NCBI RefSeq assembly: GCF_963676665.1
Contig: NZ_OY781371.1
Coordinates: 637,001-701,000, forward strand
Direction of reading: 5' to 3'
From: an uncultured Tolumonas sp.
Lineage (GTDB): Bacteria; Pseudomonadota; Gammaproteobacteria; Enterobacterales; Aeromonadaceae
Length of the DNA stretch: 64,000 nucleotides
The position numbers and the translations under genes are program-made. How positions within the stretch are numbered: position 1 is the first letter of the stretch; every line of letters begins with the position of its first letter. Positions 1 through 63,594 of this stretch are shown piece after piece. The notes under the pieces are model-generated. The model did not search any database. It saw nothing but the letters and a program-made list of their open reading frames with translations, and was not told where the DNA came from.

Positions 1-241
1 AACGGGGACTGACCGCCAAAAAAACTGCGCTCCGATGATGAGCCGCTTTAGGCGTACACACTGACGGCGCCGATGGTTGCCGAAACGTAACCAGTGCAGG
101 CTTTCAGTTTGCCACCACACGTGAATTCATGTGTTGCGCGAGGCAACCCACGCTCAGGAAGTGAGCCGCAAACACCACTGGGCTATCCGATTAGCCGCTT
201 TAAGGCTCGAATTCATCGCAAAAACGGAATCTGTTTTTATT
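1..241. repeat. gene-less cassette, family A (left part cut by window)
   Basis: Right-hand part of a gene-less cassette of family A, entering from the window edge. It carries the family core: a GATGATGAGCCGCTTTAGGC stretch, then GGTTGCCGAAACGTAACC, then GTTGCGCGAGGCAACC, then AGTGAGCCGC and TAGCCGCTTTAAGGCT. No ORF with a ribosome-binding site or family match is visible on either strand. Its attC lies outside the window. Confidence 0.8.
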
Positions 242-299
242 ACCTAACTTCGACTTATGGGGCGGTTGAAAACCGTCCCACATTAAGTTTTTGTTGTGC
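242..299 (-). repeat. attC site 1 (58 bp)
   Basis: R-boxes ACCTAAC and GTTGTGC flank a perfect central hairpin GGGCGGTTGAAAACCGTCCC. It belongs to the RelBE cassette on its right, whose other end is GCACAAC. Confidence 0.9.
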
Positions 300-383
300 G
301 CTGACACTCTAAAGTGTGATTTTACAACGCTGAAACCAGAATAAAGCCACAAGAGGTGTGTTTAATGGTGCTTTTATTGGTGC

Positions 384-389
384 TATAAT
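384..389 (+). promoter_or_regulatory. -10 hexamer of the relBE cassette
   Basis: Exact TATAAT, 28 bases before the ATG at 418. A TTTAAT at 361-366 sits 17 bases upstream and could act as a weak -35. A private promoter is expected because this operon points against the array direction. Confidence 0.5.
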
Positions 390-417
390 TAATGAAACTA
401 CAGTATGGAGCACTAAA

Positions 418-669
418 ATGGCATATCAAATTTTGACATCTGTTGCCGCTAGTATCACCGAATTAAAGAAAAATCCGATGGGCACAGCTATGGAAGGCGA
501 GGGGCAGCCAGTAGCAATTCTGAATCGAAATGAGCCTGCATTTTATATTGTACCTCCAGCGCTATTTGGCTATTTTCAAGAGCTAGCCGAAGATGCTGAA
601 CTGAACCGTATCGCTGATGAACGGATGCAATATCCTGATTTTATTGAGGTCAATATAGATGACCTATAA
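418..669 (+). CDS. Type II antitoxin, Phd/YefM-RelB-like
   Basis: 83-residue antitoxin that would neutralise the RelE-type toxin encoded directly downstream and repress their shared promoter. The protein starts MAYQILTSVAASITELKKNP, with the N-terminal beta/helix of Phd-type antitoxins; the segment around PVAILNRNEPAFYIVPP matches the Phd/YefM fold and the acidic C-terminus would bind toxin. I chose the ATG at 418 rather than 358 because the family begins here and TATAAT lies between the two. It overlaps relE by 11 bases. The pair is on the plus strand, opposite to the array. Confident as an antitoxin, less so of the exact subfamily. Confidence 0.85.
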   Translation: MAYQILTSVAASITELKKNPMGTAMEGEGQPVAILNRNEPAFYIVPPALFGYFQELAEDAELNRIADERMQYPDFIEVNIDDL

Positions 670-940
670 GCTTAAATTTGATAAAAGAGCTTGGAAAGAA
701 TGGGAAAAACTTGGTCATCCAGTCAAAGAGCAATTTAAAAAGAAATTGAAAGAACGTCTGGAGAATCCTCGAGTGCCAAGCGCCAAACTGAGTGGTCATG
801 CTGATCGTTATAAAATTAAATTGCGTTCTGCTGGTTATCGACTTGTTTATCAAGTAATTGACGAAGAGGTAGTTGTCAGTGTGATCGCCATTGGTAAACG
901 TGAAAATTCAGACGTATATAATTTAGCCAGCGATCGATAA
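659..940 (+). CDS. relE: mRNA interferase toxin RelE
   Basis: 93-residue ribosome-dependent mRNA endonuclease of the RelE family, the usual length. The sequence follows E. coli RelE closely: the FDxRAxKEWxKLG motif near residues 7-18, KLSGHADRYKIKLRSAGYRL in the middle, and the VISVGKRE-like strand (VIAIGKREN) near residues 77-85. Basic residues of the active face (the K/R cluster in RYKIKLR and the GYRLVYQ strand) are kept, so it looks functional. The start overlaps the antitoxin end, a translational coupling typical of TA operons. In superintegrons such modules are thought to stabilise the array because losing the cassette kills the cell. Confidence 0.93.
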   Translation: MTYKLKFDKRAWKEWEKLGHPVKEQFKKKLKERLENPRVPSAKLSGHADRYKIKLRSAGYRLVYQVIDEEVVVSVIAIGKRENSDVYNLASDR

Positions 941-1010
941 CAACCATACCATCTGGTATCAATTGAGTTTTTCTTGTTTTTCTGCCTTATCACAAATTAA
1001 TAACCTCAGC

Positions 1011-1087
1011 GCACAACGTCCAATTAAACGGCGGCACGGAGTGCCGTCCAGTGAGCAACGCGAACGGGTTTGAATTGTTTGTTGTGC
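1011..1087 (-). repeat. attC site 2 (77 bp)
   Basis: R-boxes GCACAAC and GTTGTGC; hairpin CGGCGGCACGGAGTGCCGTC plus the longer right arm CCAGTGAGCAACGCGAACG typical of the 77-bp class. Confidence 0.9.
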
Positions 1088-1450
1088 AAAGCGACAGGGC
1101 GCGGAGTTGATGATGAATGACACCGAGCTCGCTAGTGGTGTCACGCAGCCCAAATTCAACGTTGAAATCGCCATTTACTCTAACTCAAACAGAATTCACC
1201 GTGGTTGAATGTTTCACAGTGGTGAATTAGCGAGCCTTAGCTGCACACAAATTACACACTGACAGACTTGGCGGTTGCCGGAGACATAGCCCGCACGGTA
1301 ATGAATATTTGGCACACACGTGAATGCCTGTGTTATGCGAAGGCAACCACTCACGGAAAGTGAGCGCGTCCAACCACTGAAATTGGCATTACAGCGCTTA
1401 GCTTTTTCAGCGGGGCTGGAATTGACCAAATTAAATCACCATTTAACTCC
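1088..1450. repeat. gene-less cassette, diverged family member
   Basis: No credible gene in these 363 bases. It shares only parts of the common core: TTGGCGGTTGCCGGAGACAT near 1270, ACACACGTGAATGCCTGTGT near 1315 and GTTATGCGAAGGCAACCACT near 1331, followed by AAGTGAGCGC. It looks like an older relative of families A to E. Confidence 0.65.
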
Positions 1451-1510
1451 GCACAACTTCGTTTTATGCGGTGGCACGTAGTGCCATCCGACATTAAATA
1501 TTTGTTAGGC
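1451..1510 (-). repeat. attC site 3 (60 bp)
   Basis: R-boxes GCACAAC and GTTAGGC; hairpin GGTGGCACGTAGTGCCATCC. Confidence 0.9.
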
Positions 1511-1891
1511 AAAAGCAAAAAAGAATGGGCTATTTGCCTGAACAACCAAAAAAACTAACGCAAATTTCTCGTGTAACACACCGACGGCGTTGAATAAATT
1601 AGCAATGATGAATTCACGTCGAAATCAAATTAGCGAGCGATGCTTGACCGTAAAACCCGCAGAGGCGAGGGGCCACACTGCTTATTGTGCTCTGAAGGAA
1701 CCCTCACTGACGGCGCTGATGGTTGCCGAAGACGTAACCAGAGCTGGCTTGATGTCAGAACATAAACGTAAATTCATGTGTTGCGCGAGGCAACCCACTC
1801 GCAGGTATTGAACCGTAAATAACACAGAACTTAGATGTTTCACCGCTTTAAGGCTCGAATTCAACACAGAAAATTGGTTAAAAAACAAACC
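1511..1891. repeat. gene-less cassette, family E
   Basis: Starts GCAAAAGCAAAAAAGAATGG and shares most of its length with the cassette at 44298. It carries the common core GGTTGCCGAAGACGTAACCA and GTTGCGCGAGGCAACCCACT, with ACCGCTTTAAGGCTCGAATT near its right end. The 73- and 68-codon ORFs inside lack ribosome sites and are in different frames from any ORF of the sister copy. Confidence 0.75.
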
Positions 1892-1947
1892 TCCTAACTT
1901 CGACTTGTGGGGTTGCGTAGCAATCCCACACCAAGTTTTTGTTATGT
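1892..1947 (-). repeat. attC site 4 (56 bp)
   Basis: R-boxes TCCTAAC and GTTATGT; hairpin GGGGTTGCGTAGCAATCCC. The left box differs by one base from the GCCTAAC expected from attC 3. Confidence 0.88.
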
Positions 1948-1952
1948 GCGTT

Positions 1953-2414
1953 TTACCACGTGAGATAAATTAGCTTTTCATTCTTATTTTTGTACTCATC
2001 AGACCAACGTAGGCGCAATGTCTGTTTTCTTGCTGTTTGAGAATGTACGTAAGCAATGAGTTCAACCGCAGCATGTTTTTCCAAGCATTCATACGGAAAT
2101 TTATCGTTTAATTCAGATTCACTGACAAGTTCATTACCATTTGGGAAGTCGACCTCTACATTCCTTGCAACGGCACTACCTTTGTTCCAAATTTTCAACC
2201 GATATTTGTTGTTTCCAAGTTTGACGATTGACGCGCCCAAATCAGCTTTTTTATCATCGAGGATTTCTTCGGTTTCCTTAACAAGCAACAGCTTGTTGAG
2301 TTCTTTTTGCGTTTCAACCAGTCCATCTTGTCGTTTGTTAAATTGAACGGTTTTCCAAGTGGCATATCCTGATAGGAACAAAGCTAGAAGAGCAATGCCA
2401 TCACCAAAATCCAT
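1953..2414 (-). CDS. Small membrane-anchored protein of unknown function
   Basis: About 153 residues, family not recognised. An N-terminal hydrophobic segment (GIALLALFLSGYATW, residues 5-19) is followed by a charged, coiled-coil-like stretch to about residue 50 and then a beta-rich domain, which suggests a protein anchored in the inner membrane with a cytoplasmic domain. I moved the start to the ATG at 2414: it lies just after the stop of the upstream gene (2428) and has AAGG a few bases before it, whereas the longer start at 2465 overlaps that gene. It forms a two-gene cassette with the zinc-ribbon protein. Confidence 0.6.
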   Translation of the reverse strand: MDFGDGIALLALFLSGYATWKTVQFNKRQDGLVETQKELNKLLLVKETEEILDDKKADLGASIVKLGNNKYRLKIWNKGSAVARNVEVDFPNGNELVSESELNDKFPYECLEKHAAVELIAYVHSQTARKQTLRLRWSDEYKNKNEKLIYLTW

Positions 2415-7358: not shown

Positions 7359-7418
7359 AACTAACTTCGATTTAAGTGGCAGCACGTAGTGCTGTCCAAC
7401 TTTAAATTTTTGTTAGGT
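7359..7418 (-). repeat. attC site 9 (60 bp)
   Basis: R-boxes AACTAAC and GTTAGGT; hairpin GTGGCAGCACGTAGTGCTGT. The left box does not pair with the right box of attC 8, consistent with the deletion beside IS630. Confidence 0.9.
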
Positions 7419-7726
7419 ATGAACAAAGAAAAAGTGATTTAAAATCAACAATAAAGTTGGCTAACTGGTGCCACGGGCTTTCAGTTTTCGCTGTGCTTGC
7501 CACAAACAACCGCGCCCCGATGATGAGCCGCTTTAGGCGTACACACTGACGGCGTCGATGGTTGCCGAAACGTAACCAGTGCAGGCTGTCAGTTTGCCAC
7601 CACACGTGAATTCATGTGTTGCGCGAGGCAACCCACGCTCAGGAAGTGAGCCGCAAACACCACAGGACTATCCGACTAGCCGCTTTAAAGCTTGAATTCA
7701 TCGCAAAAACGGAATCTGTTTTTATT
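7419..7726. repeat. gene-less cassette, family A short form
   Basis: Short (about 308 bases) family A variant: ATGAACAAAGAAAAAGTGAT at the left, then an internal deletion of about 100 bases joining AACAACCGC to GCCCCGATGATGAGCCGC. The core with GGTTGCCGAAACGTAACC and GTTGCGCGAGGCAACC is intact. Confidence 0.8.
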
Positions 7727-9128: not shown

Positions 9129-9205
9129 GGTTAACTTTTAGTTAAACGGCGGCACGTAGTGCCGTCCAGTGAGCAACGCGAACGTGTTTGAACTTTTTGT
9201 TAGGT
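9129..9205 (-). repeat. attC site 12 (77 bp)
   Basis: R-boxes GGTTAAC and GTTAGGT; hairpin CGGCGGCACGTAGTGCCGTC and long right arm. Confidence 0.9.
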
Positions 9206-9611
9206 AGGAGAATAAAGGAAAGGCCATTTATTCTTCACCACAGAACCAACTTATTGGTGTACGGACTTTCAGTTTTTCACTGCACCAGCTTCAAACCACC
9301 GCTCGGAATTACCCGCCGACGATGTTGAAACAACGAAATTTGCGGGCATTTCAAATTAACTTATTTAGTGAACGGGCAGTGGTTGCCAAAAACACAACGC
9401 CCGGATGATGAGCCGCTTCAGGCGTACACACCGACGGCCTTGACGGTTGCCGAAGACATAACCAGTGCGGCATCGAATTACACACCGGCAGTGATGTCAT
9501 GAGTTATGCGAGGCAACCATTTCACCGACAGTGAGCCGCAAACAACCCTGAACCCTCATACCCACCGCTTTAAGGCTTTAATTCACCGCAAAAAAGTTAA
9601 GAAAATTAATT
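9206..9611. repeat. gene-less cassette, family B
   Basis: About 405 bases starting AGGAGAATAAAGGAAAGGCC and ending AAAAAAGTTAAGAAAATTAA. Core boxes are ACATAACCAGTGCGG and GTTATGCGAGGCAACC. No credible gene. Confidence 0.8.
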
Positions 9612-10504: not shown

Positions 10505-10581
10505 GTCTAACTTTTACTTAAACGGCGGCATGAAATGCCGTCCAGTGAGCAAAGCGAACGTGTTTCAAGTTGTTGTTATGT
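10505..10581 (-). repeat. attC site 14 (77 bp)
   Basis: R-boxes GTCTAAC and GTTATGT; hairpin CGGCGGCATGAAATGCCGTC, in which both arms changed relative to GGCACGTAGTGCC (compensatory change). Confidence 0.9.
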
Positions 10582-11020
10582 AGAGATTGAAAAAAATCAG
10601 CTCAAATTCAACACGGCATTCGCTAGTGGTTTCACAGACCTGAATTCAACACCTTGTTGGCTATTGGTGTCACGAAACCCGAATTCATCGCATCACTTAA
10701 ATTATCAACCGCTCGGAATTACCCGCCAGCAGGTTTGAAACGGCCTGTTTACTTTGTGTTTCACTGATATTATTCAGGAAATGGGTAGTGGTCGCATCAA
10801 ACCAAAACGCTCGGATGATGAGCCGCTCCAGGCGTACACACAGACGGCCATGAAGGTTGCCGAAGACATAACCAGTGCGAGATTGAATTCCACACCGGAA
10901 GTGATGTCATGAGTTATGCGAGGCAACCATTTCACCGGAAGTGAGCCGTAAACAACACCGAACTCTCATACCCACCGCTTTAGGGCTCGAATTCACCACA
11001 AAAAATTAAGAAAATTAATT
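10582..11020. repeat. gene-less cassette, family D
   Basis: Starts AGAGATTGAAAAAAATCAGC, has TAGTGGTTTCACAGACCTGA near 10624, then the common core (GATGATGAGCCGCTCCAGGC, ACATAACCAGTGCGAG, GTTATGCGAGGCAACC) and ends AAGAAAATTAATT. Sister copy at 33709; fragment at 5360. No credible gene. Confidence 0.8.
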
Positions 11021-13185: not shown

Positions 13186-13267
13186 ATATAACTTCAAGTT
13201 AAACGGCGGCACGCAGTGCCGTCCAGTGAGCAGCGTAGCGCGAACGGGTTTGAACGCCTTGTTATGC
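13186..13267 (-). repeat. attC site 17 (82 bp)
   Basis: R-boxes ATATAAC and GTTATGC; hairpin CGGCGGCACGCAGTGCCGTC and an 82-bp variant right arm (GCAGCGTAGCGCGAACGG). Confidence 0.9.
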
Positions 13268-13558
13268 AGTATTGAAAAGATGAACCTGATTCCGCCTCGG
13301 AAATAGCGACTGGTTTCACGGACTCGCGTTCAACACCATAAACAGAAAAAATTGGTTGTAAGGAATTACCCACGACGGCATTGATGTGCAGAAGCTCATA
13401 ATCGCCGCGTCGAATTTGCTGAAGCTCACGGCTGAAATTGTTTGGCGTATTATGAGCGGGCACTACTCTCGGTAGTGAGCTGTAAATAACACTGAACTTG
13501 CAGCCAACACCGCTTTAAAACTCGAATTCCCCGCAAAACTATCAGCAAATTAAAAACT
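13268..13558. repeat. gene-less cassette, family C
   Basis: About 290 bases: AGTATTGAAAAGATGAACCT at the left, an inverted repeat GCTCATAATCGCC ... GGCGTATTATGAGC at 13394-13457, then CACTACTCTCGGTAGTGAGC and ACCGCTTTAAAACTCGAATT. Sister copy at 47047 shows compensatory changes in the inverted repeat. No credible gene. Confidence 0.8.
13394..13457. repeat. attC-like palindrome inside a family C cassette
   Basis: Arms of 13 and 14 bases pair with one bulged base; the inner boxes CATAAT and ATTATG resemble attC R-boxes. The copy at 47173-47235 has T-A replaced by G-C at the same pair. Confidence 0.7.
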
Positions 13559-14331: not shown

Positions 14332-14391
14332 AGCTAACTTCGATTTAAGTGGCAGCACGTAGTGCTGTCCGACTTTAAATTTTTGTTAGGT
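14332..14391 (-). repeat. attC site 19 (60 bp)
   Basis: R-boxes AGCTAAC and GTTAGGT; hairpin GTGGCAGCACGTAGTGCTGT. Confidence 0.9.
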
Positions 14392-14797
14392 ATGAACAAA
14401 GAAAAAGTGATTTATTAACCACCACAAAACTGGCTAAGTGGTGCCACAGGTTTCAATGTTGCAACTGTGCCAGCTTTAAACAACCGCTCGGAATTACTCG
14501 CCGACAGTGTTGAATCAACGAAATCTGCTGAAACATCGACAGACTTATTCAGCGAACGGGGAGTGCCTGCCCAAAAAACTGCCCCCCCGATGATGAGCCG
14601 CTTTAGGCGTACACACTGACGGCGTTGATGGTTGCCGAAACGTAACCAGTGCAGGCTTTCAGTTTGCCAAATTACGTGAATTCATGTGTTGCGCGAGGCA
14701 ACCCACTCGCAGGAAGTGAGCCGCAAAAAACACCGAGCTATCCGACTAGCCGCTTTAAGGCTTGAATTCACCGCCAACAATGAGCCGTTATTATTAC
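14392..14797. repeat. gene-less cassette, family A, cut by IS21
   Basis: Full-length family A body (ATGAACAAAGAAAAAGTGAT ... GAGCCGTTATTATTAC). IS21 joins it within the right-hand R-box: ATTAC is present but the CTAAC that should follow is gone. Confidence 0.8.
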
Positions 14798-18190: not shown

Positions 18191-18437
18191 ATGAACAAAG
18201 AAAAAACTGTTTATTAGCAACCAACATGCTGGCTAATTGGTGCCACAGGTCTCAATGTTTCAACTGCGCCAGCTTCAAAAAACCGCTCGGAATTACATGC
18301 CGACAATATTGAATCAACGAAATTGGCTGAAATCTCAAATTGGCGCATTTAATGAACGGGCAGTGATGGCTAAAAAAACTGAGCCCCGATGATGAGCCGC
18401 TTTAGGCGTACACACTGACGGCGCTGATGGTTGCCGA
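18191..18437. repeat. gene-less cassette, family A, cut by IS1111-type element
   Basis: Left 247 bases of a family A cassette up to GATGGTTGCCGA, where an IS1111-type element begins. The right half of the cassette is lost in the IS cluster that follows. Confidence 0.8.
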
Positions 18438-18866
18438 CATAGATGGTCGCCCCCGGTTTGCCAAGCCCTCAATCAATGACGGTGGATCAGGTGGAGATTG
18501 CAGCCATAGATCCGGATTTATATCGAGGCTACTGCCTCTATCCCTGATGGAATTCGCTGACTGGCTCCTCAATCACGTAAGCGCACTTAAAAACGTGCAG
18601 TGTCGGTACCGGGTTTTGCCAGTCACGGTCTGACCTGTCTCGCCATCATGTCATGATTGCCTGTGCAATCAGTGGTTCTTCTTGATAATTGCTGCTATCG
18701 CGTTGTTACGCAGTTGGATCACCGCCACTGGTAAGCCGTGGAGAGCTCGTGTTCATGCTGTCGCCCCATAATTGGGTTCAAATACTCGGTCATGGGCAAG
18801 CAGTGCCCACACGATACGGGCATTTTTGTTAGCGAGTGCTACTGCGGCTACATTCTGATTGCGACG
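18438..18866 (-). mobile_element. IS1111-type (IS110 family) element, left fragment
   Basis: 429 bases identical in arrangement to the left end of the complete copy at 62003-63436, including GATGGTCGCCCC and the transposase 3' end. It is interrupted after GCTACATTCTGATTGCGACG by an ISAs1 element. Confidence 0.9.
18753..18866 (-). pseudogene. IS1111-type transposase, C-terminal fragment
   Basis: Last 38 codons (to the stop) of the transposase encoded intact at 62318-63346. The remainder was removed when the ISAs1 element inserted and the region rearranged. Confidence 0.88.
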
Positions 18867-20009
18867 CAGGGCAAAATCATGAAGACCCGCAGCCCGTAAG
18901 GATTTGCGAGAGGTACTCATTATTCCGACCCGCTCGTTTTTGTTTCCGTTTAATACCCGCTTTAAATGTTTTGTCCGCTGTCAGTAAGTTCATGGCTATG
19001 TGTCGACATACGGCGAGATTTGCACCCGCTTCACCCCGAACAATTTGGCATTCATCTTCCCGCATTCCGACATCTAAACGCCAGTGTAATTGGTTCTCGA
19101 TCGACCAATGCGCTCGGGTGGCCTCTAATAATTCTTTGGCGGTTAACTTTGCGGAGCTGATGTAATAGCGAAGGACAATTGATTCTGCGCGTACAGGCGC
19201 AACGCTCTCCTGTCGGTTAACGCCGACGATACCTATGGTGGTCAATTCTGGCCAGTCATAGGCCAGATCACCTAAGGGCGTTAAATCATGGCTCACAATG
19301 CAGAAACGAGTTTCTTCCCGACCATGCCCTTTTTCCTGCGTACTGTAACTGTCGTACAATTTTCCCATCCACATCGCAGGGGAATACCAGTTATCAAACG
19401 CATCAGCCAGTTTTCCCTGATTTCCTTTCACTGCCAGTAAATAGTCCGCTTTCTTTTTAATGATTTCCTGTGCAATTTTATGCTGACATCCCATGGCGTC
19501 TAGTGTCACTAAACAACCTTTTAATTCAAGCAGTTGCAGTAGTTCAGGAACAGCAGTGATCTCATTGGATTTAGTGGCTGTTTTTACTTGCCCTAAGACC
19601 ATACTATTCTGAGCACTGAACGCACTGACCATGTGGATCACGTTATCACGTTTGAATTTATCATAAGTGGCGCGTAGCGATTTACCATCAATGGCAACAA
19701 CAGAACCAGCCGTGAGGGTATGACAATTTTTCATCCACTGACAAAATAGCGTCTGTAGCTGTTTTCCTGAAATCATCCCCATGACACGTGCAATGGTGTG
19801 ATGAGAAGGACAGCCATTTTCAAAATCACCGTATAAACGTAACCAATCCAGATGATCTTCACCGAAATCGGCAATTTCTTCCCAGCCCTCAGCACCACCA
19901 ATAATGGCAGTGATAGTCAGAAAAAGAATATCAGCCAGGGTATAACTGGTTTTCTAAGATTGACGGTAGTCATGAATAATAGATATTTGATCCAAAAGGC
20001 TGAGTCCGT
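18867..20009 (-). mobile_element. ISAs1-family element, copy 1, truncated
   Basis: Begins with the terminal repeat CAGGGCAAAATCATGAAG and ends abruptly in the first codons of the transposase, where copy 2 begins. It lacks its right 175 bases with promoter and start codon. Confidence 0.88.
18877..20009 (-). pseudogene. ISAs1 transposase, copy 1, inactive
   Basis: Nearly identical to the copy at 20020-21156 but without the initiator ATG, and with an amber codon in place of the tryptophan near residue 20 (TTCTAAG versus TTCCAAG on the plus strand, near 19956). The open part from 18877 to 19782 still encodes 301 residues with the DDE-like core. Confidence 0.9.
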
Positions 20010-21328
20010 CAGGGCAAAATCATGAAGACCCGCAGCCCGTAAGGATTTGCGAGAGGTACTCATTATTCCGACCCGCTCGTTTTTGTTTCCGTTTAATACC
20101 CGCTTTAAATGTTTTGTCCGCTGTCAGTAAGTTCATGGCTATGTGTCGACATACGGCGAGATTTGCACCCGCTTCACCCCGAACAATTTGGCATTCATCT
20201 TCCCGCATTCCGACATCTAAACGCCAGTGTAATTGGTTCTCGATCGACCAATGCGCTCGGGTGGCCTCTAATAATTCTTTGGCGGTTAACTTTGCGGAGC
20301 TGATGTAATAGCGAAGGACAATTGATTCTGCACGTACAGGCGCAACGCTCTCCTGTCGGTTAACGCCGACGATGCCTATGGTGGTCAATTCTGGCCAGTC
20401 ATAGGCCAGATCACCTAAGGGCGTTAAATTATGGCTCACAATGCAGAAACGAGTTTCTTCCCGACCATGCCCTTTTTCCTGCGTACTGTAACTGTCGTAC
20501 AATTTTCCCATCCACATCGCAGGGGAATACCAGTTATCAAACGCATCAGCCAGTTTTCCCTGATTTCCTTTCACTGCCAGTAAATAGTCCGCTTTCTTTT
20601 TAATGATTTCCTGTGCAATTTTATGCTGACATCCCATGGCGTCTAGTGTCACTAAACAACCTTTTAATTCAAGCAGTTGCAGTAGTTCAGGAACAGCAGT
20701 GATCTCATTGGATTTAGTGGCTGTTTTTACTTGCCCTAAGACCATACTATTCTGAGCACTGAACGCACTGACCATGTGGATCACGTTATCACGTTTGGAT
20801 TTATCATAAGTGGCGCGTAGCGATTTACCATCAATGGCAACAACGGAACCCGCCGTGAGGGTATGACAATTTTTCATCCACTGACAAAATAGCGTCTGTA
20901 GCTGTTTTCCTGAAATCATCCCCATGACACGTGCAATGGTGTGATGAGAAGGACAGCCATTTTCAAAATCACCGTATAAACGTAACCAATCCAGATGATC
21001 TTCACCGAAATCGGCAATTTCTTCCCAGCCCTCAGCACCACCAATAATGGCAGTGATAGTCAGAAAAAGAATATCAGCCAGGGTATAACTGGTTTTCCAA
21101 GATTGACGGTAGTCATGAATAATAGATATTTGATCCAAAAGGCTGAGTCCGTTCATAGTGAGTTATCCGGCAAAAGAAAGGATAAGATCACAGGGGGATA
21201 GGATCGTCAAATCGATCGAAAAAATAGTTTCAGAATTTAAAGAATTACGGTAAAAATAAGATCAGAATTTTAAAATTCAATCCTTTCTCAAAGCCTTATA
21301 TCATGCGGGCTTTCATGCTTTTGCCCTG
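20010..21328 (-). mobile_element. ISAs1-family element, copy 2, complete
   Basis: 1.32 kb between CAGGGCAAAATCATGAAG (left) and CTTTCATGCTTTTGCCCTG (right), which are inverted repeats. Copy 2 is inserted in copy 1 on its left side and abuts an IS4-type transposase gene on its right. Confidence 0.82.
20020..21156 (-). CDS. ISAs1 family (H-repeat type) transposase
   Basis: 378 residues, normal family length. MNGLSLLDQISIIHDYRQSW at the start, GAEGWEEIADFGEDHLDWLR and the catalytic-core motifs VVAIDGKSLRATYD, VTLDAMGCQHKIAQEII and HWSIENQLHWRLDVGMREDE are those of ISAs1/H-repeat proteins. Start ATG at 21154-21156. About 170 bases upstream, before the terminal repeat, have no gene. Likely functional. 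Confidence 0.94.
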   Translation of the reverse strand: MNGLSLLDQISIIHDYRQSWKTSYTLADILFLTITAIIGGAEGWEEIADFGEDHLDWLRLYGDFENGCPSHHTIARVMGMISGKQLQTLFCQWMKNCHTLTAGSVVAIDGKSLRATYDKSKRDNVIHMVSAFSAQNSMVLGQVKTATKSNEITAVPELLQLLELKGCLVTLDAMGCQHKIAQEIIKKKADYLLAVKGNQGKLADAFDNWYSPAMWMGKLYDSYSTQEKGHGREETRFCIVSHNLTPLGDLAYDWPELTTIGIVGVNRQESVAPVRAESIVLRYYISSAKLTAKELLEATRAHWSIENQLHWRLDVGMREDECQIVRGEAGANLAVCRHIAMNLLTADKTFKAGIKRKQKRAGRNNEYLSQILTGCGSS

Positions 21329-24570: not shown

Positions 24571-24652
24571 ATTTAACTTTTAATTAAACGGCGGCACGTA
24601 GTGCCGTCCAGTGAGCAGCGTAGCGCGAACGGGTTTGAATTTGTTGTTAGGT
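24571..24652 (-). repeat. attC site 23 (82 bp)
   Basis: R-boxes ATTTAAC and GTTAGGT; hairpin CGGCGGCACGTAGTGCCGTC and the 82-bp variant right arm. Confidence 0.9.
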
Positions 24653-38236: not shown

Positions 38237-38642
38237 AGGAGAATAAAGGAAAGGCCACTTATTCTTCACCACAGAACCAACTTATTGGTGCACGGACTTT
38301 CAGTTTTTCATTGCACCAGTTTCAAACCACCGCTCGGAATTACCCGCCGACGATGTTGAAACAACGAAATTGGCTGGCATTTCAAATTAACTTATTTAGT
38401 GAACGGGCAGTGGTTGCCAAAAACACAACGCCCGGATGATGAGCCGCTTCAGGCGTACACACCGACGGCCTTGAAGGTTGCCGAAGACATAACCAGTGCG
38501 GCATCGAATTACACACCGACAGTGATGTCATGAGTTATGCGAGGCAACCATTTCACCGACAGTGAGCCGCAAACAACACTGAACCCTCATACCCACCGCT
38601 TTAAGGCTTTAATTCACCGCAAAAAAGTTAAGAAAATTAATT
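38237..38642. repeat. gene-less cassette, family B
   Basis: Near-identical to the copies at 9206 and 27603 (GCGGCATCGAATTACACACC; GTTATGCGAGGCAACC). No credible gene. Confidence 0.8.
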
Positions 38643-42312: not shown

Positions 42313-42389
42313 GCATAACTTTTAATTAAACGGCGGCACGCAGTGCCGTCCAGTGAGCAAAGCGAACGGGTTTGAATTAGTTGTTAGGT
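42313..42389 (-). repeat. attC site 48 (77 bp)
   Basis: R-boxes GCATAAC and GTTAGGT; hairpin CGGCGGCACGCAGTGCCGTC. Confidence 0.9.
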
Positions 42390-42795
42390 AGGAGAATAAA
42401 GGAAAGGCCATTTATTCTTCACCACAGAACCAACTTATTGGTGCACGGACTTTCAGTTTTTCACTGCGCCAGCTTCAAACCACCGCTCGGAATTACCCGC
42501 CGACGATGTTGAAACAACGAAATTGGCGGGTATTTCAAATTAACTTATTTAGTGAACGGGCAGGGGTTGCCAAAAACACAATGCCCGGATGATGAGCCGC
42601 TCCAGGCGTACACACCGACGGCCTTGAAGGTTGCCGAAGACATAACCAGTGCGGCATTGAATTACACACGGGCAGTGATGTCATGAGTTATGCAAGGCAA
42701 CCATTTCACCGGCAGTGAGCCGCAAACACCACTGAACCCACATACCCACCGCTTTAAGGCTTTAATTCACCACAAAAAAGTTAAGAAAATTAATT
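42390..42795. repeat. gene-less cassette, family B
   Basis: AGGAGAATAAAGGAAAGGCC to AAAAAAGTTAAGAAAATTAA with core ACATAACCAGTGCGGC and GTTATGCAAGGCAACC. No credible gene. Confidence 0.8.
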
Positions 42796-44237: not shown

Positions 44238-44297
44238 GCCTAACTTCTTTTTATGCGGTGGCACGCAGTGCCATCCGACATTAAATATTTGTTAGGC
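44238..44297 (-). repeat. attC site 51 (60 bp)
   Basis: R-boxes GCCTAAC and GTTAGGC; hairpin GGTGGCACGCAGTGCCATCC. Confidence 0.9.
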
Positions 44298-44678
44298 AAA
44301 CGCAAAAAGGGAATGGGCTATTTGCCTGAACAACCTAAAAAACTGACGCAATTTTCTCGTGCAACACACCGAGAGAGTTGAATAAACGCACAATGATGAA
44401 TTTACACTGAAACCAATTTAGCAAACGATGCTCAACCGTAAAACCCGCCGCGGCGAGGGCCCACACCGCTTATTGTGCTCTGAAGGAACACACACTGACG
44501 GCGTTGATGGTTGCCGAAGACGTAACCAGAGCAGGCTTGATGTCAGAATATAAACGTAAATTCATGTGTTGCGCGAGGCAACCCACGCTCAGGTACTGAA
44601 CCGTAAAAACACAGAACTCAGATGTTTCACCGCTTTAAGGCTCAAATTCAACACGGAAAATTGGTTAAAAAACAAACC
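44298..44678. repeat. gene-less cassette, family E
   Basis: AACGCAAAAAGGGAATGGGC at the left, matching the cassette at 1511 along its length, including GACGTAACCAGAGCAGGC and GTTGCGCGAGGCAACC. No credible gene. Confidence 0.8.
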
Positions 44679-44734
44679 GCCTAACTTCGAATTATGGGGC
44701 CACGAAGTGGTCCCACATTAATTTTTTGTTAGGT
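44679..44734 (-). repeat. attC site 52 (56 bp)
   Basis: R-boxes GCCTAAC and GTTAGGT; hairpin GGGGCCACGAAGTGGTCCCA. Confidence 0.9.
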
Positions 44735-45042
44735 ATGAACAAAGAAAAAGTGATTTAAAATCAACAATAAAGTTGGCTAACTGGTGCCACGGGCTTTCAG
44801 TTTTCGCCGTGCTTGCCACAAACAACCGCGCCCCGATGATGAGCCGCTTTAGGCGTACACACTGACGGCGCCGATGGTTGCCGAAACGTAACCAGTGCAG
44901 GCTTTCAGTTTGCCACCACACGTGAATTCATGTGTTGCGCGAGGCAACCCACGCTCAGGAAGTGAGCCGTAAACACCACAGGACTATCCGACTAGCCGCT
45001 TTAAGGCTTGAATTCACCGCCAACAATGAAGCCGTTTTTATT
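44735..45042. repeat. gene-less cassette, family A short form
   Basis: Short A variant (AACAACCGC joined to GCCCCGATGATGAGCCGC). Core ACGTAACCAGTGCAGG and GTTGCGCGAGGCAACC. Confidence 0.8.
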
Positions 45043-45102
45043 ACCTAACTTCGATTTAAGTGGCAGCACGTAGTGCTGTCCAACTTTAAATTTTTGTTAG
45101 GT
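45043..45102 (-). repeat. attC site 53 (60 bp)
   Basis: R-boxes ACCTAAC and GTTAGGT; hairpin GTGGCAGCACGTAGTGCTGT. Confidence 0.9.
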
Positions 45103-45504
45103 ATGAACAAAGAAAAAGTGATTTAAAATCAACAATAAAGTTGGCTAACTGGTGCCACGGGCTTTCAGTTTTCGCTGTGCCTGCCACAAACAACCGCTCG
45201 GATGACTCGCCGACAGTGTTGAATCAACGAAATCTGCTGAAACATCGACAAACTTATTCAACGAACGGGGACTGACCGCCAAAAAAACTGCGCCCCGATG
45301 ATGAGCCGCTTTAGGGGTACACACTGACGGCGCCGATGGTTGCCGAAACGTAACCAGTGCAGGCTTTCAGTTTGCCAAATTACGTGAATTCATGTGTTGC
45401 GCGAGGCAACCCACGCTCAGGAAGTGAGCCGCAAACACCACTGGGCTATCCGACTAGCCGCTCTAGGGCTCAAATCCGCCGCAAAAACGGAATCTGTTTT
45501 TATT
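45103..45504. repeat. gene-less cassette, family A
   Basis: Full-length A (ATGAACAAAGAAAAAGTGAT to ACGGAATCTGTTTTTATT) directly beside the short form on its left. No credible gene. Confidence 0.8.
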
Positions 45505-46964: not shown

Positions 46965-47046
46965 AGATAACTTCAAGTTAAACGGCGGCACGTAGTGCCG
47001 TCCAGTGAGCAGCGTAGCGCGAACGGGTTTGAACGCCTTGTTATGC
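46965..47046 (-). repeat. attC site 56 (82 bp)
   Basis: R-boxes AGATAAC and GTTATGC; hairpin CGGCGGCACGTAGTGCCGTC, 82-bp variant right arm. Confidence 0.9.
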
Positions 47047-47336
47047 AGTATTGAAAAGATGAACCTGATTTCGCCTCGGAAATAGCGACTGGTTTCACGG
47101 GTTCAAAATCAACACTGCAACTAGAAAACAGGGTTGTAAGGAATTACCCGCTGACGGCGTTGAAGTGCAGAAGCGCATAATCGCCGCGTCGAAATAGCTG
47201 AAGCTCACGGCTAAAATGTTTGGCGTATTATGCGCGGGCACTACTCTCGGTAATGAGCCGGAAATAACGCAGGACTTGCAGCCAACACCGCTTTAAAGCT
47301 GGAATTCCCCGCAAAACTACCAGCAAATTAAAAACT
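47047..47336. repeat. gene-less cassette, family C
   Basis: Sister of the cassette at 13268, with an 82-bp attC of the same class. Contains the covarying inverted repeat at 47173-47235. No credible gene. Confidence 0.8.
47173..47235. repeat. attC-like palindrome inside a family C cassette, second copy
   Basis: GCGCATAATCGCC pairs with GGCGTATTATGCGC, one base bulged. Relative to 13394-13457 both partners of the third pair changed (T-A to G-C). Confidence 0.7.
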
Positions 47337-47396
47337 GCATAACTTCGATTTAAGTGGCAGCACGTAGTGCTGTCCAACTTTAAATTTTTGTTAGGT
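47337..47396 (-). repeat. attC site 57 (60 bp)
   Basis: R-boxes GCATAAC and GTTAGGT; hairpin GTGGCAGCACGTAGTGCTGT. Confidence 0.9.
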
Positions 47397-47704
47397 ATGA
47401 ACAAAGAAAAATTGATTTTAAATCAACAATAAAGTTGGCTAACTGGTGCCACGGGCTTTCAGTTTTCGCCGTGCCTGCCACAAACAACCGCGCCCCGATG
47501 ATGAGCCGCTTTAGGCGTACACACTGACGGCGCCGATGGTTGCCGAAACGTAACCAGTGCAGGCTTTCAGTTTGCCACCACACGTGAATTCATGTGTTGC
47601 GTGAGGCAACCCACGCTCAGGAAGTGAGCCGCAAACACCACTGGGCTATCCGATTAGCCGCTTTAAGGCTTGAATTCATCGCAAAAACGGAATCTGTTTT
47701 TATT
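47397..47704. repeat. gene-less cassette, family A short form
   Basis: Short A variant, core ACGTAACCAGTGCAGG and GTTGCGTGAGGCAACC. No credible gene. Confidence 0.8.
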
Positions 47705-49538: not shown

Positions 49539-49598
49539 GCTTAACTTCGTTTTATGCGGTGGCACGTAGTGCCATCCGACATTAAAATTTTGTTAGGT
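49539..49598 (-). repeat. attC site 60 (60 bp)
   Basis: R-boxes GCTTAAC and GTTAGGT; hairpin GGTGGCACGTAGTGCCATCC. Confidence 0.9.
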
Positions 49599-50001
49599 AT
49601 GAACAAAGAAAAAGTGATTTAAAATCAACAATAAAGTTGGCTAACTGGTGCCACAGGTTTTCAGTGTTCGCTGTGCTTGCCACAAACAACCGCTCGGATG
49701 ACTCGCCGACAGTGTTGAATCAACGAAATCTGCGGAAACATCGACTGACTTATTCAGCGAACGGGGAGTGGTCGCCAAAAAAACTGCGCCCCGATGATGA
49801 ACCGCTTTAGGCGTACACACTGACGGCGTTGATGGTTGCCGAAACGTAACCAGTGCAGGCTTTCAGTTTACCGAAGTAGCGTGAATTCATGTGTTGCGCG
49901 AGGCAACCCACGCTCAGGAAGTGAGCCGCAAACACCACAGGGCTATCCGATTAGCCGCTTTAAGGCTCGAATTCATCGCAAAAACGGAATCTGTTTTTAT
50001 T
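49599..50001. repeat. gene-less cassette, family A
   Basis: Full-length A. Core ACGTAACCAGTGCAGG and GTTGCGCGAGGCAACC; GATGATGAACCGC replaces GATGATGAGCCGC. No credible gene. Confidence 0.8.
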
Positions 50002-52578: not shown

Positions 52579-52638
52579 ATCTAACTTCGATTTAAGTGGC
52601 GGCACGTAGTGACGTCCAACTTTAAATTTTTGTTAGGT
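52579..52638 (-). repeat. attC site 64 (60 bp)
   Basis: R-boxes ATCTAAC and GTTAGGT; hairpin GTGGCGGCACGTAGTGACGT with one uncompensated mismatch. Confidence 0.88.
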
Positions 52639-53040
52639 ATGAACAAAGAAAAAGTGATTTAAAATCAACAATAAAGTTGGCTAACTGGTGCCAAGGGCTT
52701 TCAGTTTTCGCTGTGCTTGCCACAAACAACCGCTCGGATGACTCGCCGACAGTGTTGAATCAACGAAATCTGCGGAAATATCGACAGACTTATTCAGCGA
52801 ACGGGGACTGACCGCCAAAAAAACTGCGCTCCGATGATGAGCCGCTTTAGGCGTACACACTGACGGCGCCGATGGTTGCCGAAACGTAACCAGTGCAGGC
52901 TTTCAGTTTGCCAAATTACGTGAATTCATGTGTTGCGCGAGGCAACCCACGCTCAGGAAGTGAGCCGCAAACACCACTGGGCTATCCGACTAGCCGCTTT
53001 AAGGCTCGAATTCATCGCAAAAACGGAATCTGTTTTTATT
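52639..53040. repeat. gene-less cassette, family A
   Basis: Full-length A; core ACGTAACCAGTGCAGG and GTTGCGCGAGGCAACC. No credible gene. Confidence 0.8.
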
Positions 53041-55706: not shown

Positions 55707-55766
55707 CTCTAACTTCGATTTAAGTGGCAGCACGTAGTGCTGTCCAACTTTAAATTTTTGTTAGGT
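55707..55766 (-). repeat. attC site 67 (60 bp)
   Basis: R-boxes CTCTAAC and GTTAGGT; hairpin GTGGCAGCACGTAGTGCTGT. Confidence 0.9.
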
Positions 55767-56168
55767 ATGAACAAAGAAAAAGTTATTTAAAATCAACAAT
55801 AAAGTTGGCTAACTGGTGCCACGGGCTTTCAGTGTTCGCTGTGCCCGCCACAAACAACCGCTCGGATGACTCGCCGACAGTGTTGAATCAACGAAATTTG
55901 CGGACATATCGACAGACTTATTCAGCGAACGGGGACTGACCGCCAAAAAAACTGCGCCCCGATGATGAGCCGCTTTAGGCGTACACACTGACGGCGCCGA
56001 TGGTTGCCGAAACGTAACCAGTGCAGGCTTTCAGTTTGCCACCACACGTGAATTCATGTGTTGCGCGAGGCAACCCACGCTCAGAAAGTGAGCCGCAAAC
56101 ACCACTGGGCTATCCGACTAGCCGCTTTAAGGCTCGAATTCATCGCAAAAACGGAATCTGTTTTTATT
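55767..56168. repeat. gene-less cassette, family A
   Basis: Full-length A. Internal palindrome boxes ACGTAAC (56012-56018) and GTTGCGC (56060-56066). No credible gene. Confidence 0.82.
56012..56066. repeat. Internal attC-like palindrome, family A example
   Basis: Boxes ACGTAAC and GTTGCGC, 55 bases end to end, with ACACGTGAA facing TTCATGTGT inside. Compared with family B (ACATAAC, GTTATGC) the third pair is G-C instead of A-T. Confidence 0.6.
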
Positions 56169-56910: not shown

Positions 56911-56970
56911 ATTTAACTTCGATTTAAGTGGCAGCACGTAGTGCTGTCCAACTTTAAATTTTTGTTAGGT
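56911..56970 (-). repeat. attC site 69 (60 bp)
   Basis: R-boxes ATTTAAC and GTTAGGT; hairpin GTGGCAGCACGTAGTGCTGT. Confidence 0.9.
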
Positions 56971-57371
56971 ATGAACAAAGAAAAAGTAGTTTATTATCAA
57001 CTAACATGCTGGCTAACTGGTGCCACGGGCTTTCAGTTTTCGCTGTGCCTGCCACAAACAACCGCTCGGATGACTCGCCGACAGTGTTGAATCAACGAAA
57101 TCTGCGGACATATCGACAAACTTATTCAGCGAACGGGGACTGACCGCCAAAAAAACTGCGCCCCGATGATGAGCCGCTTTAGGCGTACACACTGACGGCG
57201 CCGATGGTTGCCGAAACGTAACCAGCGCAGGCTTTCAGTTTGCCACCACACGTGAATTCATGTGTTGCGCGAGGCAACCCACGCTCAGGAAGTGAGCCGC
57301 AAAACCCACTGTGCTATCCGACTAGCCGCTTTAAGGCTTGAATTCACCGCCAACAATGAGCCGTTTTTATT
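56971..57371. repeat. gene-less cassette, family A
   Basis: Full-length A; core ACGTAACCAGCGCAGG and GTTGCGCGAGGCAACC. No credible gene. Confidence 0.8.
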
Positions 57372-61195: not shown

Positions 61196-61213
61196 TTTTG
61201 AACCACAGCAGAC

Positions 61214-61666
61214 TCAGAACTTTCTTGATAGTCTTGCCGGATTGCCTAAATAAGTGCCTGGAACGGTAATATTTTTTGTGACAACGGCGCCTGCACCAAT
61301 AACTGCACCGGAACAAATATGGACGGGAAGTATTGTTGCATTCGAGCCAACCGTCACGTTGTCTTCAAGAACGGTTCGCCCCCATGAATTTGGATCTGCG
61401 TTAGGGGAACCGTTTTTGAATAAGTCATTAGCGAACATCACCCCATGACCAATGAAGCAGTCATTGCCAATTGTGACAAATTCACAAATAAATGTATGGG
61501 ACTGGATCTTTGTTCGTTGGCCGATTGAAACATTCTTTTGGATTTCGACAAAAGGGCCGACAAAAGAATCATCACCAATAGTACTGGTTGGTTCAATAAC
61601 TTTCACATTGCGGCCGAAACGCACATCACGAACAGAAACCTTGAGAGTAATTGGTTGATTATCCAT
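61214..61666 (-). CDS. Hexapeptide-repeat acyltransferase
   Basis: 150 residues forming a left-handed beta helix: repeats such as IGDDSFVGPFVEIQKNVSIG, IGNDCFIGHGVMFAND, VTVGSNATILPVHICSGAVI and GAGAVVTKNITVPGTYLGNP. The WbbJ/LbetaH family transfers acyl groups to sugars, often in O-antigen or capsule synthesis; such genes are common as cassettes that alter the cell surface. Catalytic His probably in GHGVMF. Confidence 0.92.
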   Translation of the reverse strand: MDNQPITLKVSVRDVRFGRNVKVIEPTSTIGDDSFVGPFVEIQKNVSIGQRTKIQSHTFICEFVTIGNDCFIGHGVMFANDLFKNGSPNADPNSWGRTVLEDNVTVGSNATILPVHICSGAVIGAGAVVTKNITVPGTYLGNPARLSRKF

Positions 61667-61775
61667 GTGATTATCGCCATTGGTTGGTCATGTTTTTGGA
61701 TATATATGAGTTATAGCGAACCCAATGAAATAAGAATATTTTTTACGAATTACACACTGAACGAGCTGTTCAAGA

Positions 61776-61852
61776 ACTTAACTTTTAATTAAACGGCGGC
61801 ACGCAGTGCCGTCCAGTGAGCAAAGCGAACGGGTTTGAATTAGTTGTTAGGT
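61776..61852 (-). repeat. attC site 75 (77 bp)
   Basis: R-boxes ACTTAAC and GTTAGGT; hairpin CGGCGGCACGCAGTGCCGTC. Confidence 0.9.
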
Positions 61853-62002
61853 ATGAACAAAGAAAAAGCAGTTTATTAGCAACCAACAGGCGGGCTAATT
61901 GGTTTCACGGACTTTCAGTGTTCACTGCGCCAGCGTCAAACAACCGGGCCCCGATGATGAGCCGCTTTAGGCGTACACACTGACGGCGCCGATGGTTGCC
62001 GA
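61853..62002. repeat. gene-less cassette, family A short form, left part
   Basis: Short A variant, up to GATGGTTGCCGA, where the IS1111-type element starts. It continues at 63437. Confidence 0.8.
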
Positions 62003-63436
62003 CATAGATGGTCGCCCCCGGTTTGCCAAGCCCTCAATCAATGACGGTGGATCAGGTGGAGATTGCAGCCATAGATCCGGATTTATATCGAGGCTACTGC
62101 CTCTATCCCTGATGGAATTCGCTGACTGGCTCCTCAATCACGTAAGCGCACTTAAAAACGTGCAGTGTCGGTACCGGGTTTTGCCAGTCACGGTCTGACC
62201 TGTCTCGCCATCATGTCATGATTGCCTGTGCAATCAGTGGTTCTTCTTGATAATTGCTGCTATCGCGTTGTTACGCAGTTGGATCACCGCCACTGGTAAG
62301 CCGTGGAGAGCTCGTGTTCATGCTGTCGCCCCATAATTGGGTTCAAATACTCGGTCATGGGCAAGCAGTGCCCACACGATACGGGCATTTTTGTTAGCGA
62401 GTGCTACTGCGGCTACATTCTGATTGCGACGCCTCATTATCCCTGCTAACCAACTTCCGGCATGTTCGGCCTTGCGTTCAGCAACCCGAAGCACTGCTCG
62501 AGCCCCGTGGATCAGCAGAGTTCGCAGATAGCTGTCGCCGCGTTTGCTTATACCCAGCAGGGTTTGTTTCCCGCCGCTGGAATGTTGCCGTGGCACTAAC
62601 CCCAGCCAAGCAGCCAGTTGCCGACTATTCTCGAAATTCGTCGCGTTGCCGACAGAAGCGACCAAGGCACTGGCAGTGATTGGGCCGATGCCGGGGATCT
62701 GCGCCAGCTTTTTACTGGCTGTATTCTCTCTGTGCCAACGCTGAATTTGGACTTCCAGTTCTTTGGTGTGCCGGTCGAGTTCCTTGAGATGCTCACCCAG
62801 ACGATTGAGCAATTGGCGAAACGTCCCCGGCAGGTCGTTCTCGCTTTCTTCCAAGATCTTGGGTAAGCGCAGGCTGATGTGCACAATGCCTTTAGGGATA
62901 ATGATCCCTTGTTCAGCCAACAGGCCCCGGATCTGGTTGGCTTGCGCAGTTCTCGCCTTGACGAACCCTTGCCGGGCACGGTGCAGGGCCAAGACGGCTA
63001 ACTGCTCGCGACTCTTTATCGGTACAAAGCGCATGGTAGGCCTAGTCACCGCTTCGCAGATCGCCTCCGCATCAGCTGCGTCGTTCTTATTGGTCTTCAC
63101 ATAGGGTTTAACGAATTGTGGCGGCATCAATTTCACGATATGACCCACCCTTTGCAACTGATTAGCCCAGTAGTGGGCGCTACCGCAAGCCTCCATTCCA
63201 ATTAAGCAGGGGGGAAGATTGGTGAAGAAGAGCATCATCTGCTCCCGCTTCAGTTGCTTCTTCAACATCGTCTTGCCACGCTCATTCACACCGTGCACTT
63301 GGAATACGTTTTTTGCCAGATCAATACCAACAGTTGTGATCTTCATAGCGGTCGCCTCTCTCATCCATCTGTGGGAACACTTATTCGCCACTTTGACACG
63401 TTAGATGCCGTTTTGGGGAGGGGCGACCATCCCATT
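62003..63436 (-). mobile_element. IS1111-type (IS110 family) element, complete
   Basis: 1.43 kb with subterminal inverted repeats GATGGTCGCCCC near the left end and GGGGCGACCATC near the right, as in the IS1111 group. Inserted inside a gene-less family A cassette between GGTTGCCGA and ACGTAACC, precisely where the fragment at 18438 also begins. About 300 bases (62003-62317) downstream of the transposase hold no gene. Confidence 0.9.
62318..63346 (-). CDS. IS1111-group transposase
   Basis: 342 residues from MKITTVGIDLAKNVFQVHG, with GAGAGG upstream. The N-terminal DEDD domain (GIDLAKN; CLIGMEACGSAHYWANQLQR; KTNKNDAADAEAICEAV) and C-terminal transposase_20 domain (IPGIGPITASALVASVGNAT; WLGLVPRQHSSGGKQTLLGI) define the family. 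The ORF could extend to 63391, but the extra residues are not conserved. Intact. Confidence 0.95.
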   Translation of the reverse strand: MKITTVGIDLAKNVFQVHGVNERGKTMLKKQLKREQMMLFFTNLPPCLIGMEACGSAHYWANQLQRVGHIVKLMPPQFVKPYVKTNKNDAADAEAICEAVTRPTMRFVPIKSREQLAVLALHRARQGFVKARTAQANQIRGLLAEQGIIIPKGIVHISLRLPKILEESENDLPGTFRQLLNRLGEHLKELDRHTKELEVQIQRWHRENTASKKLAQIPGIGPITASALVASVGNATNFENSRQLAAWLGLVPRQHSSGGKQTLLGISKRGDSYLRTLLIHGARAVLRVAERKAEHAGSWLAGIMRRRNQNVAAVALANKNARIVWALLAHDRVFEPNYGATA

Positions 63437-63594
63437 ACGTAACCAGTGCAGGCTTTCAGTTTGCCTAATCAACGTGAATTCATGTGTTGCGCGAGGCAAC
63501 CCACGCTCAGGAAGTGAGCCACAACCCCCACAGGACTATCCGACTAGCCGCTTTAGGGCTTGAATTCACCGCCAACAAATAAGCCGCTTTTATT
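63437..63594. repeat. gene-less cassette, family A short form, right part
   Basis: Continuation after the IS: ACGTAACCAGTGCAGG, GTTGCGCGAGGCAACC, AGTGAGCCACAACC and TAGCCGCTTTAGGGCT. No gene. Confidence 0.8.

Follow-up and report, generated by a model that had tools for sequence, protein, structure and literature searches.

Non-coding cassettes have been reported to make up 6-49% of Vibrio integron arrays, where cassettes counted as non-coding if they lacked BLASTX matches and any open reading frame (ORF) above 150 bp (Boucher et al. 2006, PMC1382264); a second study set the ORF limit at 210 bp (PMC11014356). The former report describes a paralogous non-coding family in Vibrio vulnificus, with 45 and 34 copies in two strains, relatives in other species and none outside the vibrios, and considers it to show signs of purifying selection; it already put forward selfish, promoter and RNA roles for Vibrio non-coding cassettes. 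Here we analyze a family of gene-less integron cassettes in a 64,000-nucleotide stretch of DNA (the window) that spans positions 637001-701000 of contig C4 in a 4.2-Mb Tolumonas genome (G000).

Like the V. vulnificus family, with which they are compared on the basis of its description, the Tolumonas cassettes appear to be non-coding, are present in multiple copies within arrays, were found in one genus only and have relatives in other species. They differ from it in their host, a member of the Aeromonadaceae; the features described here are a probable stem, a repeat within the core, conservation in blocks and a constant position of the core. The Vibrio promoter cassettes are likewise gene-less and of similar size (PMC11014356), whereas the Tolumonas set constitutes one core-sharing family without a detected promoter signal. 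The ORF-less cassettes of oral metagenomes are also gene-less integron cassettes (PMC6557892), and sRNA-Xcc1 of Xanthomonas is a non-coding RNA on an integron cassette, although that cassette additionally carries symE and the Tolumonas cassettes are gene-less (PMC12444791). Clusters of attC sites lacking integron integrases (CALIN) share with the Tolumonas locus a large attC array with no integrase nearby, but the same Tolumonas genomes encode a full-length integron integrase elsewhere that could act in trans. A literature search at listing level found no publication on Tolumonas cassette arrays. The Tolumonas family adds a better-resolved case to the expansion of non-coding cassettes previously described in V. 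vulnificus.

The reading that we tentatively place first, from sequence comparison, is that the payload of these cassettes may be a conserved nucleic-acid element, probably RNA, which would be kept by selection and moved by an integrase encoded far away.

The cassette array and its gene-less family

A home-made attC profile (E < 0.05, 204-kb stretch) located 178 attC on C4, every one of them on the minus strand, from 597,479 to approximately 745.7 kb, and 74 attC were found within the window at E < 0.1. The array, of about 140 kb, is read along the minus strand. Among 182 bodies with complete boxes, 173 have an upstream attC whose last 7 nucleotides (nt) are exactly complementary to the 7 nt that open the cassette's own attC, as compared with only 37 of 182 in which the two ends of one single attC are complementary, and the same relationship holds in 66 of 69 gene-less bodies taken alone. 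The bodies are bounded, as integron gene cassettes are, by attC sites whose complementary R boxes are shared across the cassette. The profile overlooks an attC type of about 90 nt, and cassette counts are for this reason approximate. A further contig of the same genome, C12 (14.5 kb), is array throughout, with 17 attC and 7 cores, and is not placed in the assembly.

A profile of the approximately 165-nt core shared by the gene-less cassettes returned 92 matches at E up to 1 in the G000 array stretch and C12. Eighty-one of these are full length, 31 of them in the window, where four partial matches also occur, all on the minus strand; this bears out a reading of the window from its sequence alone (the sequence-only reading), which had counted about 32 gene-less cassettes in a few related families. 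A short IUPAC pattern of the core matched the window 19 times and 100 shuffles not once, which rules out a chance occurrence. The same array stretch and C12 contain 76 mutually related bodies of up to 560 nt, chiefly of 307-312 and 401-409 nt, and the families A to E of the sequence-only reading correspond to two main length forms (about 308 and 401-409 nt) plus diverged subfamilies, the short form being without a stretch of about 94 nt located after the core. The sequence boxes quoted as common to these families are indeed present in the window, but were given in the orientation opposite to that of the array, whose attC lie on the minus strand. When positions 1-600 of the window were compared with their own genome, the 59 matches listed, self excepted, showed 73-98% identity and all fell on C4 between 607 and 744 kb or on C12.

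The loci examined in five Tolumonas genomes yielded 248 full-length cores, 209 of them distinct, which fall into 12 clusters at 80% identity; seven of these clusters have members in more than one genome. The core is present in 238 of 681 parsed cassettes, 200 of which are short (up to 460 nt) and gene-less, counts that overlapping G002 contigs inflate somewhat. Those contigs were retained in the ORF, core-position, cluster, attC and parsing counts (the set of 200 cassettes), and two of them were excluded from the promoter, junction, conservation and identity, and composition analyses, leaving 186 gene-less cassettes. With the second attC type included, core-bearing cassettes number 77 of 180 on G000 C4, 48 of 126 in G010, 43 of 202 in G009 and 24 of 63 on G002 C3, that is, 21-43% of the four largest array pieces.

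The earlier statement that these cassettes hold no credible ORF stands. Median longest ORFs in the 200 gene-less cassettes are 51 amino acids (aa) forward and 44 in reverse, no longer than those in dinucleotide shuffles of 150 of them (56 and 51.5 aa), and core-free cassettes of up to 1500 nt (n=412) have a median longest forward ORF of 169 aa. On either strand, the longest ORF does not exceed 50 aa in 71 of the 200 cassettes and 70 aa in 155, and an ORF of at least 100 aa occurs in three. It is very improbable, in our judgment, that the cassettes are remnants of a protein-coding family whose frame was lost, be it ahead of its multiplication or afterwards. Gene-less Vibrio cassettes are sometimes gene-derived (PMC11014356), and by eye short stretches of some Tolumonas subfamilies can be read in similar frames. 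The ORF lengths nonetheless argue against such an origin, as do the lengths of the cassettes and the core indels, which are not multiples of three, and the conservation of short blocks across species.

The core elements of the window are as follows, based on the core profile unless stated otherwise.

38-200, minus strand: core, full length (E 9e-48); upstream attC 242-296, own attC left of the window
1239-1399, minus strand: core, diverged subfamily; own attC 1013-1084
1690-1848, minus strand: core; own attC 1452-1509
7523-7685, minus strand: core, short-form cassette; own attC 7361-7417
9407-9570, minus strand: core; own attC 9132-9204
10818-10980, minus strand: core; own attC 10507-10580
13357-13515, minus strand: core, subfamily 1; own attC around 13188-13225
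14593-14755, minus strand: core within a longer parsed body; own attC 14334-14390
18392-18441, minus strand: core fragment adjoining an IS110 remnant
24852-25014, minus strand: core, one of a tandem pair in a single cassette; own attC 24574-24651
25008-25168, minus strand: core, second of the tandem pair (period of about 155 nt)
26355-26518, minus strand: core; own attC 26097-26152
26838-27001, minus strand: core; own attC 26560-26634
27321-27484, minus strand: core; own attC 27043-27118
27804-27967, minus strand: core; own attC 27526-27601
28284-28447, minus strand: core; own attC 28009-28084
29492-29654, minus strand: core; own attC 29214-29289
30795-30958, minus strand: core, short form; own attC 30633-30689
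33834-33867, minus strand: possible additional copy of the core terminal module (weak match, E 0.0069)
33945-34109, minus strand: core, diverged; own attC 33653-33707
35332-35494, minus strand: core; own attC 35052-35127
37955-38118, minus strand: core; own attC 37681-37756
38438-38601, minus strand: core; own attC 38160-38235
42592-42754, minus strand: core within a longer parsed body; own attC 42314-42388
44478-44635, minus strand: core; own attC 44239-44296
44839-45001, minus strand: core, short form; own attC 44680-44733
45301-45462, minus strand: core; own attC 45043-45101
47132-47293, minus strand: core, subfamily 1; own attC around 46967-47004
47501-47663, minus strand: core, short form; own attC 47338-47395
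49797-49960, minus strand: core; own attC 49540-49597
52837-52999, minus strand: core; own attC 52581-52637
55965-56127, minus strand: core; own attC 55709-55765
57169-57331, minus strand: core; own attC 56914-56969
61957-63553, minus strand: core interrupted by an IS110 insertion (parts at 61957-62006 and 63437-63553); own attC 61777-61851

Conservation, distribution and the remote integrase

The core holds a fixed place in the cassette, starting at cassette nt 46-52 in 195 of the 200 gene-less cassettes, and its orientation is that of attC in all 252 core matches within parsed cassettes. Across 68 long-form cassettes, conservation is concentrated in blocks comprising the left arm of the stem described below (96%), two further 20-nt blocks (93%) and the border between body and attC (95%), and reaches its lowest value, 76%, between them. 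Such a pattern is not that of a useless sequence in neutral drift, unless local gene conversion has occurred.

A relative in the same genome was found for 179 of 186 gene-less cassettes, and a relative in another genome for 181 of 186; the best identities have medians of 92.7% and 88.8%, respectively, and 43 of the 186 reach 97% or more within their genome. Gene cassettes have a same-genome copy in 101 of 386 cases, at a median of 99.1%. Because the same-genome median lies at 92.7%, against 99.1% for duplicated gene cassettes, these comparisons indicate that the gene-less family is of old standing and did not arise mainly through recent amplification. Core-bearing cassettes are dispersed in a manner that fits random order, with 28 adjacent pairs observed against 32.5 expected in G000 and 14 against 18.0, 10 against 8.9 and 11 against 8.7 in the other arrays (no test below 0.05). 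In G000, neighboring cassettes of 708 and 636 nt recur in the same order at C4 673.3-674.7 kb and 744.2-745.6 kb, suggesting duplication of a block.

Beyond the window genome, the sequence model of the core identified matches in Tolumonas only. Five of 11 Tolumonas genomes contain it, with 91, 74, 49, 45 and 5 matches, and one genome, G006, is labeled as the same species as that of the window. Under a strict filter, the sequence model found the core in none of 64 genomes from other genera of the family and, among 394 genomes drawn from the order, only in the window genome, and the structured model found it, among 369 genomes drawn from the class, again only there; strict filters in these searches lose weak matches, so that distant relatives may be missed. 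In a core pattern search of genome contigs, the only true copies came from a metagenome-assembled genome of a Tolumonas sp., the five non-Tolumonas pattern matches being rejected for want of a significant match to the core profile (best E 0.41). No homologs turned up among plasmids, phages or viral contigs, each searched with a single query or pattern. Lone cores with one to four attC occur remote from the main arrays at G010 C1:711,192 and G009 C1:2,061,798, as would be seen after insertion at secondary sites.

A full-length integron integrase match occurs in exactly those five genomes that carry the core. In G000, the sole match above the curated cut-off (TIGR02249, 447 bits) lies on another contig, at C11:508,906-509,853, and C4 has no integron-integrase match at E 0.001. 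No attC was detected at E < 0.05 in the 40 kb surrounding this gene, nor in the 20 kb surrounding its counterparts in G002, G009 and G010, the search beside intI in these four genomes covering roughly 9-20 kb on each side. In G010, which is a single contig, the array occupies 947-1036 kb and the integrase lies at 3,447 kb, a distance of 2.4 Mb or, should the contig be circular, of approximately 1.4 Mb in the opposite direction. The integrases being remote from attC in these genomes, the Tolumonas arrays are CALIN-like, and an integrase encoded elsewhere in the genome could act on them in trans. Counting partial matches, the core is present in five of the six Tolumonas genomes with an integrase over the cut-off and in none of the five without; the sixth is 70% complete and has a partial integrase over the cut-off and no core.

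This distribution bears on the chief rival to a selected payload, a rival that we consider somewhat unlikely, namely that the cassettes are a selfish, non-autonomous lineage, akin to miniature inverted-repeat transposable elements (MITEs), that exploits the integrase with no gain to the host. The core would then promote its excision, its insertion or its maintenance as DNA, acting for instance as a hairpin of single-stranded DNA or as a site bound by a protein. The lack of a gene, the high copy number, the confinement of the 59 listed G000 matches to its arrays, the restriction to one genus and to integrase-bearing genomes, and the seemingly random dispersal are all as expected of such a lineage. 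The concordance with the integrase, however, may merely reflect possession of an array, and the copies are old and mostly not fresh duplicates, unlike those of gene cassettes. Parts of the core are, moreover, among the most conserved blocks, although attC-type mobility is not known to depend on an internal core, and the stem itself is not that of an attC site.

The core stem and the nature of the payload

On the reading strand, the core contains a likely two-part stem in which GGTTGCC/GGCAACC flanks CGCAAC/GTTACG, CATAAC/GTTATG or CATAAT/ATTATG, enclosing an apical part of roughly 40-70 nt. We rejected the possibility that this stem is a second attC, given that most of subfamily 1 presents AAT...ATT in place of the outermost AAC...GTT and that the further helix GGTTGCC/GGCAACC lies outside the AAC...GTT-type pairing. 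A degenerate repeat is also present, with a stretch of about 50 nt preceding the stem recurring past it (score 34, against 33 for the best of 1000 base shuffles). An organization in three modules was not upheld, since the A-B repeat is narrowly supported (34 vs 33), A-C is marginal (0.019) and B-C is unsupported (0.41). Similarly, a role of the core as a 5' leader fused to genes was discarded in the cases inspected, where an attC of the approximately 90-nt type had been overlooked. The core has a G+C content of 53%, compared with 36% in gene-cassette bodies, and the end of the body before attC is T-rich (51% T vs 27% in gene cassettes), with a run of at least five T before attC in 66% of 137 gene-less and 4% of 379 gene cassettes.

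The two arms of the stem show signs of coordinated change. In subfamily 1, the most strongly covarying column pair is a stem pair (T-A in 20, G-C in 8 and T-C in 2 of 30 cores; z 18.8), and another stem pair is standard, G-T included, in 207 of all 209 distinct cores (G-C 124, A-T 76, G-T 7, A-C 2). Over the 14 pairs of the stem in 110 distinct aligned cores, 89.6% of cells pair, versus 85.5% in shuffles and 27-50% when the stem is slid by one to three columns; 69 cells have changed on both sides, versus 20 in shuffles, and the covariation score is 0.137, versus 0.070 in shuffles and 0.014-0.093 in slid versions. Stem pairs were counted on an alignment from a sequence-only model, and the main stem tree and pair counts used 115 matches at 20 loci (G009, G010, G006 and two G000 stretches), with the window itself excluded. 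Mean folding z scores on the two strands are -0.85 and -1.06 for cores (n=61), -0.16 and -0.06 for gene segments (n=60) and about -2.9 and -3.0 for attC with flank (n=50), and single sequences fold no better or slightly better than shuffles, with one exception (z -2.5). In a blind scan for stems, the proposed one did not come out as a single helix, in part because of a C-A mismatch in the main subfamily; a three-pair piece of it was placed third. Together, these data suggest a two-part stem that is likely real but modest.

Several observations weigh against a selected, structured RNA. The right arm of the stem is less conserved than the left (90% vs 96% in the 68 long-form cassettes), 68 of 109 cores leave one central pair open, chiefly as C-A in the main subfamily, and a stem pair ranks fifth in covariation over all 209 cores, with the top covarying pairs of the two larger subfamilies (116 and 39 cores) lying outside the stem. 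Two of five pair measures are not above shuffles (double-change pairs, 5 vs 4.2; further pair types, 9 vs 13.3), and the stem was named after inspecting the same families, which favors it over its slid versions. On trees built without the stem columns, supported independent changes at four pairs go in the same direction in 2 of 3, 1 of 4, 1 of 1 and 0 of 4 cases, and never in the opposite one, but are so few that the result cannot reach significance; on the subfamily 1 tree there are seven changes on each side and nine for the pair, about five of them coinciding. Gene conversion between copies could also have carried both arms together. The mismatches G-U and A-C are near equal (27.7 and 31.9 weighted cells), so that neither strand is identifiable as RNA, and RNAalifold applied to a MAFFT alignment returned a weak consensus fold (-2.8 kcal/mol) different from the proposed stem. 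Best sigma-70-like scores in gene-less cassettes do not surpass those of base shuffles (medians 8.2 vs 8.4 forward and 8.2 vs 8.2 in reverse), the attC junctions give no promoter signal (5.7 vs 5.8 shuffled, 179 junctions), 60 sampled cassettes yielded no signal of an intrinsic terminator at the T-rich end, and Rfam returned no match at gathering over the window. With relaxed E-values, window positions 1-2000 gave four weak Rfam matches, far under gathering.

The sequence-only reading had put forward a selected or self-propagating function, naming a structured RNA, promoter supply and an efficient integrase substrate as options. The general proposal is supported by an old, diversified multi-copy family present in several genomes, with block conservation and coordinated changes in the stem, and the divergence appears neither structure-free nor confined to one array, given the likely stem and the presence of the core in several Tolumonas genomes. 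For the structured RNA, the coordinated changes and the likely stem speak in favor; the weak fold, the small number of independent changes and the lack of a strand preference do not. Promoter supply found no support in consensus scoring of either cassettes or junctions. It appears quite unlikely that these cassettes provide internal promoters to downstream genes in the manner of gene-less Vibrio cassettes, 29 of which were selected and most found to have sense-strand promoter activity (PMC11014356). Interspersion among gene cassettes would suit such a role; the G+C-rich nature of the conserved part would not. The scores themselves are weak counter-evidence, in-silico promoter scoring being unreliable for known promoter cassettes according to the same source (PMC11014356).

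With these alternatives considered, we tentatively favor a selected nucleic-acid payload, on sequence grounds, with RNA as its likelier form and selfish DNA as the main rival. An RNA fits because the core is G+C-rich, capable of pairing and fixed in place. The distant integron integrase would excise and re-insert the gene-less cassettes, allowing copies to spread; the small RNA would be made by transcription along the array in its reading direction; and the core would be kept since its folded form acts, most probably as a small non-coding RNA or, in an alternative form, through a function of the folded single DNA strand.

Other elements of the array and wider meaning

Several insertions interrupt cassettes of this family. 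An element of the IS110 insertion sequence (IS) family of transposases (NCBIfam NF033542, 379.5 bits for the window copy) is found at window positions 61957-63553 and also at C4 607,828-609,289 and 655,395-655,867, each time in a different gene-less cassette but at the identical point of the core right arm. Comparison of two full copies showed flanks that are 88-90% alike and IS parts that are 99.6% alike, for which reason the insertions look independent. A further full copy lies outside the array (C11:1,440,940), following a similar TTACGT. At G000 C4 628,619-630,499 and 732,835-734,714, two identical cassettes have their core interrupted by the same IS-like ORF of 425 aa, and the whole cassette has therefore been duplicated together with its insertion. 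In G009, an element with a 335-aa ORF, which we take to resemble the IS1111-attC group, interrupts attC at the same point in C1:1,550,205-1,551,772 and 1,447,554-1,449,235.

Elsewhere in the window, positions 18877-21156 contain ISAs1-family transposase ORFs within the array, and positions 240-940 constitute a two-ORF cassette. Its 240-652 segment is similar to genes for Phd/YefM-type antitoxins or stbD plasmid stability on enterobacterial plasmids, with 1036 records at 60-80% identity, none covering 80% of the query.

Many superintegron cassettes are gene-less. The Tolumonas family, with approximately 200 related copies in several species and a defined core, would allow direct tests of whether such cassettes persist through a selected function of their RNA or DNA, through selfish spread or as suppliers of promoters, and Tolumonas also offers arrays with a remote integrase. 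A broader interpretation, which we regard as unlikely, is that the family represents a genus-wide structured non-coding RNA family living as integron cassettes, amplified in trans and diversified into subfamilies, with the array serving in part as an RNA library. If this were true, RNA genes or RNA regulatory elements would account for roughly one to two fifths of all cassettes of these superintegrons.

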